Source: Acidobacteriota bacterium | GTDB lineage: Bacteria; Acidobacteriota; UBA6911; RPQK01; JAJDTT01 | DNA length: 35,921 bases | Assembly: GCA_022827025.1 (NCBI GenBank) | Contig: JAJDTT010000118.1 | Coordinates: 1 to 35,921, forward strand | Direction: 5' to 3' | Part shown: in pieces, positions 27 through 20,306 of the stretch | Position numbering within the stretch: the stretch's first letter is position 1 | Layout: every line of letters starts with the position of its first letter | Program-made: the position numbers and the translations under genes | The notes under the pieces: model-generated | What the model saw: the letters and a program-made list of their open reading frames with translations, nothing else | The model's database searches: none | Told to the model about the DNA's origin: nothing

Positions 27-83
27 GGGGGGACTCCGTCCCCCCCAGGTCCCCCGTGGGCGGCGGCAGGTTGCCGCCGCTCC
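27..83 (-). repeat. Double-hairpin intergenic repeat, copy A
   Basis: Two adjacent hairpins. The first pairs 27-34 (GGGGGGAC) with 38-45 (GTCCCCCC). The second pairs 60-68 (GCGGCGGCA) with 72-80 (TGCCGCCGC), followed by TCC. The same arrangement recurs at 570-627 in the same orientation on the other side of the small antitoxin gene. The second hairpin resembles the units in the 14725-15442 island, but with GCA/TGC where others have ACA/TGT. Whether it is a REP-like element, an mRNA 3' structure or both cannot be decided from one window. Confidence 0.7.
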
Positions 84-13203: not shown

Positions 13204-14289
13204 ATGAGACTCGATGAACTGGAAACCCCGGCAATGATCATCGACGTGGAGGTCATGGAGGACAATCTTCGGAGGATGGCGGCTTACGCCGAGCGTCACG
13301 ATCTGACTCTGCGGCCTCACATCAAGACGCACAAGATGCCTCGCCTGGCCCGGCGGCAGTTGGAGCTGGGAGCCCGCGGCATCACCGTCGCCAAGTTGGG
13401 CGAGGCCGAAGTCATGAGCGAGGCCGGCTTGGATGACCTGATGCTGGCCTATCCTCCCATCGGCGAGGCCAAGGCCCGGCGGCTGCGGGCGGTGCTGGAG
13501 CGGGCCCGGGTCTCGGTCAGCCTCGATTCGGAAGAGGCGGTCGCCACCACAGGCCGCGCCGCGGACGGCGCCCGGATCCCCGTGTTCGTGGAGGTCGACC
13601 TGGGGGCCCGCCGCTGCGGGGTGCCGCCCGGTCCGGATGCGGTCCGTCTCGCCCGTCTCATCGAAGCCACCCCAGGCCTCGACTTCGAAGGGCTCATGTT
13701 CTATCCGGGCCACGTCCACCCGGACTTCGACGGCAACAACAATACTCTCGAGAAGCTTGCCGGCGACCTGCAGCGGCTCTTGGAGCTCTTTGCGGCCGAG
13801 AAGTTTCCCGTCCCCCGGATCTCGGGCGGGAGCACTCCGTCCGCCCCTTACTGCCACCTGATCCGGGGCCTGGACGAGATGCGGCCGGGAACCTACATCT
13901 TCAACGACCGCAACACCTTGGAGTGGAAGACCTGCACCGAAGAGCAGTGCGCCGCCTCGTTGCTGGTTACCGTCATCAGCAACGCCGTTTCGGGGCGCGT
14001 CATCGTCGACGGCGGTTCCAAGACCTTCTCCAACGACCCGCTGGGACCGGGCACGCAGAAAGGACATGGACTGGTCCGGGGCTACCCGGAGATGATCCTT
14101 TTCTTCATGAATGAGGAACACGGATTCCTGGAGTTGCCGCCCGGCGTGCACCTGAAGGTGGGACAACGGCTCCGGATCATCCCCAACCACATCTGTGGCG
14201 CCGTCAATCTCCATGACGTGGTCTTTCCCTACCGGGGCCAGGAGGTCGTGGGGGAGTGGACGGTGGAGGCTCGAGGCCGGATCAGGTGA
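13204..14289 (+). CDS. D-threonine aldolase / D-serine dehydratase-like PLP enzyme (fold type III)
   Basis: This 361-residue protein opens with LDELETPAMIIDVEVMEDNL, the start of the alanine-racemase-like TIM barrel. The PLP lysine is in RPHIKTHK. Further family features are FVEVDLGARRCGV, the GGSTPSAPY phosphate loop and RPGTYIFND. A late PNHICGAVNLHD segment supplies the His/Cys metal site that distinguishes metal-activated D-threonine aldolases and eukaryotic-type D-serine dehydratases from racemases. Known members cleave D-threonine to glycine and acetaldehyde or dehydrate D-serine; which applies here is not visible. The ATG at 13204 follows GGAGAGA at 13191-13197 and starts 26 bp after purN. 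The stop overlaps the NUDIX start. Its position behind purN suggests shared transcription; a metabolic link through glycine is inference. Confidence 0.88.
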   Translation: MRLDELETPAMIIDVEVMEDNLRRMAAYAERHDLTLRPHIKTHKMPRLARRQLELGARGITVAKLGEAEVMSEAGLDDLMLAYPPIGEAKARRLRAVLERARVSVSLDSEEAVATTGRAADGARIPVFVEVDLGARRCGVPPGPDAVRLARLIEATPGLDFEGLMFYPGHVHPDFDGNNNTLEKLAGDLQRLLELFAAEKFPVPRISGGSTPSAPYCHLIRGLDEMRPGTYIFNDRNTLEWKTCTEEQCAASLLVTVISNAVSGRVIVDGGSKTFSNDPLGPGTQKGHGLVRGYPEMILFFMNEEHGFLELPPGVHLKVGQRLRIIPNHICGAVNLHDVVFPYRGQEVVGEWTVEARGRIR

Positions 14290-14708
14290 CCCGGCCGCCC
14301 CAAGCGGCGCCGGTCCCCCACGTGGAGGTGGCCGTCGCCATTCTCCTGTCGCAGGGCCGGGTCTGGATCCAACCGCGCCGGACCCGGGACAGTCTCATGG
14401 GCTGCTGGGAGTTTCCGGGCGGGAAGCTGAAGCCGGGGGAATCGGCTCGCGACGGACTGAGGCGGGAAGTCCGGGAGGAGTTGGGCCTGGACCTGTCCGA
14501 AAGCCCGGCTGAATCGTACGGGAGAGCCCGCCACAGTTACCCGGAGCATACGGTGGACATCCGGTTCTTCCTCTGCCGGCTGCCGTCGCCGCTGCCCCTG
14601 AGCCCGGGCCGTTGGGTCGAATTGTCCCGCCTCTCTACCTACCGGTTCCCCCCGGCCAATCGGTCTATAGTCCGGCGGCTCAAAGAAATGACCGGCAACG
14701 GCAACTGA
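14286..14708 (+). CDS. MutT-like NUDIX hydrolase
   Basis: This small protein (140 residues from the GTG at 14286) carries a complete NUDIX box. G-x5-E-x7-REVREELG lies in GGKLKPGESARDGL followed by RREVREELGL. It binds Mg2+ and hydrolyses a nucleoside-diphosphate-linked substrate. The preceding GCWEFPGG and the following W-VEL...STYRFPPANRSIV tail resemble MutT proteins that remove 8-oxo-dGTP, so nucleotide-pool cleaning is the best guess. The chosen GTG overlaps the upstream stop (GTGA), matching the 4-bp overlaps elsewhere in this operon. A GTG at 14256 is an in-frame alternative adding ten residues. It is the last gene before the repeat island and converges with ftsZ. Confidence 0.88.
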   Translation: MTRPPQAAPVPHVEVAVAILLSQGRVWIQPRRTRDSLMGCWEFPGGKLKPGESARDGLRREVREELGLDLSESPAESYGRARHSYPEHTVDIRFFLCRLPSPLPLSPGRWVELSRLSTYRFPPANRSIVRRLKEMTGNGN

Positions 14709-14724: not shown

Positions 14725-14866
14725 GGAGCGGCGTCTCTCAGGCGCCGAACAGCGGCGTGTTTCACGCACCGACTGGGACCGGCGTCCAAGCGGCGTCGTC
14801 CTCGACGCCGACTGGGACCGGCGTCCGGGGCGGCGTCGTCCTCGGCGCCGACTGGGACCGGCGTCC
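14725..14866 (+). repeat. Short tandem hairpin units, block 1
   Basis: Units lie at 14725-14748 (partial), 14749-14787, 14788-14826 and 14827-14866. Each has the form xxxGCGGCG, a variable hairpin, CGCCGACTGGGACCGGCGTCC. The hairpins include GCGTG-TTT-CACGC and GGCGTCG-TCCT-CGACGCC. CTGGGACCGGCGTCC is identical in the three full units. Confidence 0.85.
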
Positions 14867-15080
14867 TTTCGGGCGCCGTCTTACGACCTCGCAATCAAGA
14901 AAAACCGGGCGGCCGCACCGTCTCTCCCTCGCCTGTGTTCGTCCTCACCCCTCCCCCAGCGCGAAAACGAACGGAAGGACCGACCTCCCTCCGAAGAAAA
15001 GACCCAAGACGTCCAGCCGCCGAGCTTCGAGTGCTCTCAACGCTCGAAAGAGGGCGCCAAGGATGACGCCCCTCCAAACG

Positions 15081-15237
15081 AGCATCGACTTTCCACTCGC
15101 CGACCGGGAAGGGAGACTTGGAGCAGCGACATTCTTGTCGCCGACCGGGACGGGCGTCGGAGCGGCGTCTTCCAGGCGCCGACTGGAACCGGCGTCCGGA
15201 GCGGCGGCGTCCTCGGCGCCGACTGGGAGCGGCGTCC
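15081..15237 (+). repeat. Short tandem hairpin units, block 2
   Basis: A degenerate unit at about 15081-15119 is followed by units at 15120-15158, 15159-15197 and 15198-15237. The 15120 unit holds GCGACA-TTCT-TGTCGC (15126-15131 with 15136-15141), the same stem as the copy B repeat near higA. The block leads into the second body copy exactly as block 1 leads into the first. Confidence 0.83.
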
Positions 15238-15442
15238 TTCCGGGCGCCGTCTTACGACCTCGCATTCACGAAAAACCAGTCGGCCGCACCGTCTCTCCCC
15301 GCCTGTGTTCGTCCTCACCCCCCAGCACCAGAACGACCGAAAGAACCGGCCTCCCTTCGAAGAGAAGAACCAAGACGTCCAGCCGCCGAGCTTCGAGTGC
15401 ACTCAACGCTCGAAAGAGGGCGCCAAGGATGACGCCCCTCCA

Positions 15443-16600
15443 TCAGTGCCTTCGGCCCTGGCGCAAGATGGCCGGAACTTCCACGTCCCGGCTGAAGATC
15501 GGGAGCGGCGGAACGGCGATGGACTTGAGGTTGGGCCGGTCCGATGGGGAGGACTCTCCGCGGCTGTCACCGGCGGGCTTGGCGGCCTGGTCATTGCGGT
15601 TGCCGTTCGGGTCGGTGAACCCGGTGGCGATCACGGTGATCTTGATCCGGTCCCCCATGTTCTGGTCCAGCACCGACCCGAAGATGATGTTGGCGTTGGG
15701 ATCGGCCGCATTCTGTATCAAGCCGCTGGCTTCGTTGACCTCGTGAAGAGTGAGACTGTCGCCCGCCGTGATGTTGATGAGAACTCCCCGGGCACCCTGG
15801 ATGGTGGCGTCATCCAACAACGGACTGCTCACCGCGCTGGTGGCCGCCGTCAATGCCCGGCCTTCCCCTTCTCCCACGCCGGTCCCCATCAGAGCCAACC
15901 CCGTGGCGCCCATGATGGTCTTGATATCGGCGAAGTCCAGGTTGATGAAACCGGGCACGTTGATGAGGTCGGCGATTCCTTGAACCGCCTGGCAGAGGAT
16001 GTCGTCGGCATAGGCGAAGGCGTCGGCCAGCGGCGTGCCGGGAGACAAGGCATCCAGCAACTGCTCGTTGGGAACCGTGACCACCGTGTCCGCGCTCTCC
16101 TTCAACTCTTCCAGACCCCGTTGCGCCTGTAGCGTTCTCCGCCGGCCCTCGAAAACGAAGGGTGTCGTCACCACGGCGACGGCGAGAGCTCCCAATTGAC
16201 GAGCCAGGTCCGCAACCAGGGGAGCTCCGCCGGTTCCGGTTCCTCCGCCGAGCCCTGCGGTCACGAAGACCATGTCCGAGCCCTCCAGGTGATCCATGAT
16301 CTGCTCGGTATCCTCCAAGGCGGCCTGACGTCCGATCTCGGGATTCGAGCCGGCTCCAAGCCCCTTGGTGATCTTGCTGCCGAGCTGGATTTTGACCCCT
16401 GCTTTCGACTGCCTGAGCGCCTGAAGGTCCGTATTGGCGGCTATGAACTCGACGCCTTGGATCCCCATGCGAACCATGCGATTGACGGCGTTTCCGCCCC
16501 CGCCGCCGACACCGACGACCTTGATGCGGGCCTCACTCCCCAAGTCGTCTTCAAAGACCCATTTCATGCTGCCGCTATCTTCGAATTCCGGATGATCCAT
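15443..16600 (-). CDS. ftsZ: Cell division protein FtsZ
   Basis: FtsZ is the tubulin-like GTPase that forms the division ring. The 385-residue protein has [15 protein letters not shown] (T1), the tubulin signature [10 protein letters not shown] (T4), NEQLLDAL, and the T7 synergy loop [11 protein letters not shown] that activates GTP hydrolysis in the neighbouring subunit. After the core a short linker of about 45 residues leads to the conserved C-terminal peptide VPAILRQ, which in other bacteria binds FtsA. The ATG at 16600 is preceded by GGGAGGAAA. It is the last gene of the dcw cluster, 62 bp after ftsA. The stop codon abuts the 14725-15442 repeat island directly, so ftsZ mRNA would run into those hairpins unless terminated there. 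Confidence 0.98.
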
Positions 16601-20216: not shown

Positions 20217-20306
20217 GGGCACCCGCAAGGGGTACCCCTACGGTGGATTTCGGTCGTCGCCGGGCGCCCGCAAAGGATGCCCATCCGGTGTCCGATTCCG
20301 GTCCGT
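20217..20306. repeat. Tandem 45-bp hairpin repeat in the murG-murC gap
   Basis: Two degenerate copies start at 20217 and 20262: GGGCACCCGCAAGGGGTACC and GGGCGCCCGCAAAGGATGCC. They share a GGTG..CGATT/GGATTTCGGTC-like tail. The first folds as GGGCACCC-gcaag-GGGTACCC with one mismatch. The block occupies most of the widest gap in the dcw cluster, between the murG stop and the murC start, and has no coding signal. It could be an inserted intergenic element, an RNA-processing site or an attenuator. Confidence 0.65.

Follow-up and report, generated by a model that had tools for sequence, protein, structure and literature searches.

The non-coding island between the convergent NUDIX and ftsZ genes of the window (the whole stretch of 35,921 nt analysed here) is very probably a REP-like cluster, made up of tandem GGAG-tagged hairpins and two REPIN-like doublets of 215–221 nt that are RAYT-associated and non-autonomous. 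The doublet, referred to below as the body, was seen in one species only. It is classed as a variant because its tag reads GGAG instead of GT[AG]G and because its spacer is long; by analogy with described REP systems, we infer that a RAYT transposase moves it. The original prediction had left the choice between a non-autonomous mobile element, which is the part that stands, and a structured RNA, which is the part given up below.

The island is bordered by the NUDIX gene (14256–14708, plus strand; PF14815 NUDIX_4, E 2.7e-21) and by ftsZ (15443–16600, minus strand; PF00091 and PF12327; stop codon at 15443–15445). It begins with a tandem array of REP-like hairpins (14725–14854, plus strand; period ~40 nt), of which the first unit is GGAGCGGCGTCTCTCAGGCGCCG at 14725–14747 and in which the tags of several later units have decayed. 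Body copy 1 (14855–15075, plus strand) consists of a left hairpin (14855–14878, tag decayed to GGAC), a spacer, and an inverted right terminal GGAG hairpin (15052–15075, minus strand; GGAGGGGCGTCATCCTTGGCGCCC). A second hairpin array (15076–15225, plus strand), with GGAG units at 15120–15143, 15159–15181, and 15198–15221, separates it from body copy 2 (15226–15441, plus strand), which runs from a left hairpin at 15226–15249 (GGAGCGGCGTCCTTCCGGGCGCCG) to a right terminal GGAG hairpin at 15418–15441 (minus strand). Both bodies were delimited against the other copies; at either end of each, ~24 nt form a hairpin of the array type. Further GGAG hairpins occur in the window (61–83, 112–135, and 604–627), the last of them inside an ORF called at 589–1530.

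Two diverged copies of a unit of ~370 bp had been predicted for this gap, with indels of 1 and ~4 nt and with the second copy adjoining the ftsZ stop. These features are real: the copies are offset by 366–371 nt, identity is 93% between 14806–14928 and 15177–15299 and 91% between 14953–15076 and 15319–15442 (90% for the whole body), and the indels measure 1 and 4 nt. The terminal CTCC of copy 2 ends at base 15441, so that a single A precedes the ftsZ stop. Gene order makes it plausible that dcw transcription continues into the element, and a role of the element at the ftsZ 3' end is possible.

The body lies at ~40 loci of the window's own genome, a fragmented Acidobacteriota MAG, in both orientations and next to many unrelated genes, a dispersal that far exceeds chance. 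Full-length copies number 24 and are 83–99% identical to their nearest relative copy; the remainder contain nested inserts or run off the end of a contig. With so many copies elsewhere, the body is not unique to this locus. A local tandem duplication and nothing more would account for the left end CCTTYCGGGCGCCG, common to both window copies and unseen in the other aligned copies, and for the grouping of these two copies (support 0.845); as a complete explanation it is ruled out by the ~40 copies elsewhere and has next to no probability; moreover, copy 1 shares 95% identity with a copy on contig C84, more than the 90% it shares with copy 2. Duplication may account for the presence of a pair here, but not for the nature of the unit. 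The species restriction was seen in several searches: the body was not found in three genomes of the same genus (one of them with 30-bp end matches only), in 56 further relatives, or in the rest of the 38 genomes of the class, and exact-pattern scans of genome and viral contigs and distant BLAST of plasmids gave no match.

Several body copies are interrupted at one identical point, with the same junctions, by a nested block carrying GGAGGGGGGAC hairpins, as if a single nesting event had afterwards been copied along with the body; the block is common to L024, L026–L030, and contig C22 (12113–12519). A different, probably MITE-like element is present as an insert of 155–175 nt in the body copies of L081 (2200–2640, contig C126) and L082 (3600–4010, contig C21), at the same point in both and in opposite orientation; its ends resemble AGCCCGTGG...CCACGGGCT and adjoin TTACC/GTTACC, a possible 5-bp target duplication. 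Many copies have a further module, GGAGTATCCATGTTGCAAGTGAA, ahead of the body (left flanks of L002, L009, L011, L020, L022, L024, and L026–L030).

Full copies of 215–221 nt consist of a GGAG-tagged hairpin, a spacer of ~170 nt, and a second hairpin of that kind in inverted orientation (GGAG...CTCC). All well-aligned copies thus hold two REPs in inverted arrangement, as REPINs do, with a left stem CGGCG...CGCCG and a right inverted stem GGGCG...CGCCC followed by CTCC; the ~40 copies suggest that the doublet replicates as one unit. Conservation peaks at the ends and is lowest in the middle. The two ends also pair with each other, imperfectly, and a representative copy folds as single-stranded DNA into one long hairpin (z -3.3 and -4.4 for the two strands). 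It is the local stems that are strictly kept: the left closes with C:G and the right with G:C in 21 of 21 copies, and because each hairpin keeps its own closing pair, mutual end pairing is mismatched there in all 21. Covariation over the long fold of the whole element is close to nil and is therefore not used as evidence.

These features bear on two other readings of the body. A classical MITE, that is, a terminal-inverted-repeat element moved by a DDE transposase, would fit the long imperfect terminal inverted repeats and the MITE-sized non-coding body; it is nevertheless improbable, since the ends conserve each local hairpin and not their pairing with each other, since isolated matches to the element ends in genome G000 all lie at body copies, and since none of the junctions inspected showed a recognisable target-site duplication, relatives being too divergent around them for a clean comparison. 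A structured RNA or cis-acting element at the 3' end of the ftsZ transcript (terminator or stabiliser) is suggested by the position directly after ftsZ, by the minus-strand RNA of copy 1, which folds somewhat better than its shuffles (z -2.9), and by four terminator-like sites where 1.2 were expected, a difference that is not compelling. We consider it very improbable: the same body stands beside many unrelated genes of a single species and is absent after ftsZ in genus-mates, its middle is the least conserved part, its ends keep local hairpins, the long fold shows almost no covariation, and the Rfam search of the body gave no match above threshold (best whalefall-1, 17.9 bits where 37 are needed, E 0.16). 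A secondary effect of the element on the ftsZ mRNA may still exist. The reading as a REP-like mobile element draws instead on the dispersed copies in both orientations, the inverted terminal hairpins, the nested insertions, the body-free sites of sister species, and the occurrence of these repeats on both sides of a RAYT gene.

The units of the array and the ends of the body belong to one type of hairpin, and this GGAG family is abundant. Counted by pattern over the whole genome, GGAG hairpins number 683, where a reversed-pattern control gives 11, and the three genus-mates have 304–326; in 34 other genomes of the class there were at most 26, near the control. In 491 kb, hairpins with stems of at least 8 numbered 174 against 57 in a Markov control, and their commonest 5' tags were GGAG and GTAG; a separate GTAGGGG hairpin family is also present in this genome. 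In a search that demanded the inner arm and left the closing pair free, the closing pair in non-coding DNA was C:G in 42 hairpins, G:C in 25, and mismatched in two; by these counts and by the varied inner stems, the stem is kept by compensatory change, as expected of REPs. High copy number and a mostly extragenic position, likewise expected of REPs, were also found: in 527 kb of contigs annotated with a simple gene caller, a sample backed by the whole-genome count, 64 of 72 GGAG hairpins lay in non-coding DNA. Those no more than 30 nt from a called gene end were all at the stop codon (15 of 15, clustered hairpins not being independent), and inverted neighbouring hairpins were arranged tag-out in 13 cases and tag-in in three. 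The tag itself departs from the canonical GTAG/GTGG, the hairpins of body and array carrying GGAG; the family is therefore not filed under canonical GT[AG]G REPs and is named a GGAG-tagged variant.

Two Y1_Tnp matches were found in the genome (RAYT-A and RAYT-B, 67% identical to each other). Both exceed the cut-off of PF01797 and possess the HUH and tyrosine motifs; against NCBIfam NF047646 (REP-associated tyrosine transposase) they gave E 2.6e-20 and 3.7e-18, with 72.8 and 65.8 bits, below the cut-off of 80. RAYT-A aligns with TnpArep (PDB 4er8) over HUH (HVH) and the YI..NP tyrosine motif, a weak match (E 3.9e-5). RAYT-A is enclosed by two body copies and by GGAG hairpins, and RAYT-B is flanked by GGAGGGGGGAC hairpins, a second GGAG type that also flanks a RAYT of G002 and one of a Verrucomicrobia MAG. 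The association of RAYTs with GGAG hairpins thus recurs in relatives: the syntenic RAYT-A orthologue of G001 (80%) lacks the body and is bracketed by GGAGCGGCG GGAG hairpins in inverted orientation, and the orthologue of G003 has related, degenerate hairpins. Flanking by inverted REPs accordingly holds for RAYT-A, for its G001 orthologue, and for others. Beside more distant RAYTs, from Acidobacteriota, Planctomycetes, and Verrucomicrobia, flanking hairpins with a GTAG or GTGG tag are frequent. The word clade is used for these RAYTs as a working term, because the tree was a quick one and its support values are not shown.

Corresponding sites were compared with those of relatives. The ftsZ/NUDIX gap is short in G001 (two loci) and G002, with different and shorter REP hairpins inside and the body absent, and in G001 these hairpins directly touch the ftsZ stop; the G003 contig ends nearby. 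Relatives likewise carry other REPs in the same interval at L012, L025, and L004, and carry neither REP nor body at L009 and L019. The body therefore arrived in this lineage, sometimes at existing REP sites and sometimes not. With ~32 GGAG clusters among 215 intergenic regions, the four of six compared sites that already held REPs would look like an excess over chance, in a small sample of sites that were not randomly chosen.

Such sites would also be expected if the body had spread mainly by recombination or gene conversion between existing REP sites, replacing shorter doublets, and not by RAYT transposition into new sites. The REP hairpins already present in genus-mates at the ftsZ gap, L004, L012, and L025 speak for this, and replacement and re-insertion at a hotspot look alike in these comparisons. 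We hold recombination as the main route to be rather unlikely: the relatives at L009 and L019 have neither REP nor body, and some copies therefore came with new REP sequence.

The element resembles REPINs (Bertels and Rainey 2011, PMC3116915) in its two inverted REP hairpins, its conserved ends and less conserved middle, its foldability as one hairpin, its high copy number, its extragenic position, and the RAYT of the same genome that is flanked by the repeats; it differs from them in the GGAG tag and in the spacer of ~170 nt. Inter-REP spacings in SBW25 are 71 and 110 nt (PMC3116915), and dimer spacers of GT[AG]G REPs are mostly 20–100 bp (PMC3733652), so that the spacer here exceeds that in described REP doublets. 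With GT[AG]G REPs, as described by Di Nocera (2013, PMC3733652) and Nunvar (2010, PMC2817692), the family shares a short hairpin with a 4-nt 5' tag and a mostly intergenic position near ORF 3' ends, touching stop codons, in clusters and in doublets; the tag GT[AG]G defines the REPs studied, whereas the tag here is GGAG. TIRtrons/TIRYTs, which include acidobacterial members, are RAYT-like genes with long inverted repeats on their flanks, some forming repeat families (PMC3733652). The RAYT genes between inverted repeats found here recall them, although, according to their description, TIRtron/TIRYT repeats mostly have no relation to REPs, whereas those here are tagged hairpins.

In comparison with E. 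coli TnpAREP (PDB 4er8), RAYT-A keeps W, Q, and R residues of the GTAG-recognition region and differs in its longer N-terminal part (227 aa in all) and its GGAG-tagged hairpins. The GTAG tag of TnpAREP takes part in recognition and in cut-site choice in vitro, to a degree that varies between systems (PMC8266576). The string GGAG is absent from the texts of PMC3733652, PMC6006769, and PMC8266576; the survey covered freely accessible literature, and priority is not claimed. In passages of PMC2817692, GGAG lies within repeats like GTAGGAGC, preceded by a GTAG tag.

By analogy with TnpAREP, the RAYT (HUH/Tyr, IS200-like) would recognise tag and hairpin on single-stranded DNA, cut at the two tag-out ends, and spread the doublet, itself able to form a single long hairpin. 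Most of the surviving copies would be those directly behind stop codons, where they may do little harm, the gap between the convergent NUDIX and ftsZ genes being one such place; their accumulation there could reflect target choice or tolerance. The pair in the window may stem from a second insertion or from local duplication of array and body, recombination between REP sites may contribute to spread, and any effect on the 3' end of the ftsZ mRNA would be a by-product.

More tentatively, and with somewhat less than even confidence, we suggest that in a RAYT clade and its REP population the guide tag changed jointly from GT[AG]G to GGAG, and that REP sites stay in place across species as new content (stem type, spacer) repeatedly replaces the old; the 220-nt doublet would be the latest such replacement, in one species. 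RAYTs with GGAG repeats (Acidobacteriota and one Verrucomicrobia MAG) have relatives with GTAG/GTGG repeats, so that specificities could be compared directly; the family is thus a natural system in which to test how a RAYT transposase recognises the tag at the base of its REP hairpins. REP sites after an essential division gene, moreover, change content between closely related species.

Further observations were made on RAYT loci and on other repeats. In the Verrucomicrobia MAG (L137, JAPLUI010000242.1), the RAYT is 61% identical to RAYT-A and has GGAGGGGGGACATTCC hairpins on both sides, through either inter-phylum transfer or a misbinned contig. At L142 (G001, contig CATOST010000015.1), GGAG hairpins are repeated in tandem over a long stretch downstream of a second RAYT copy that seems to be frameshifted. 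Hairpins of the GTAGGGGCGCCCCTTGTGGGCGCCC type, found in the window at 20217–20241, in the flank of L019, and in genus-mates, form a second REP-like family, and their context of ~68 nt is conserved across the genus.
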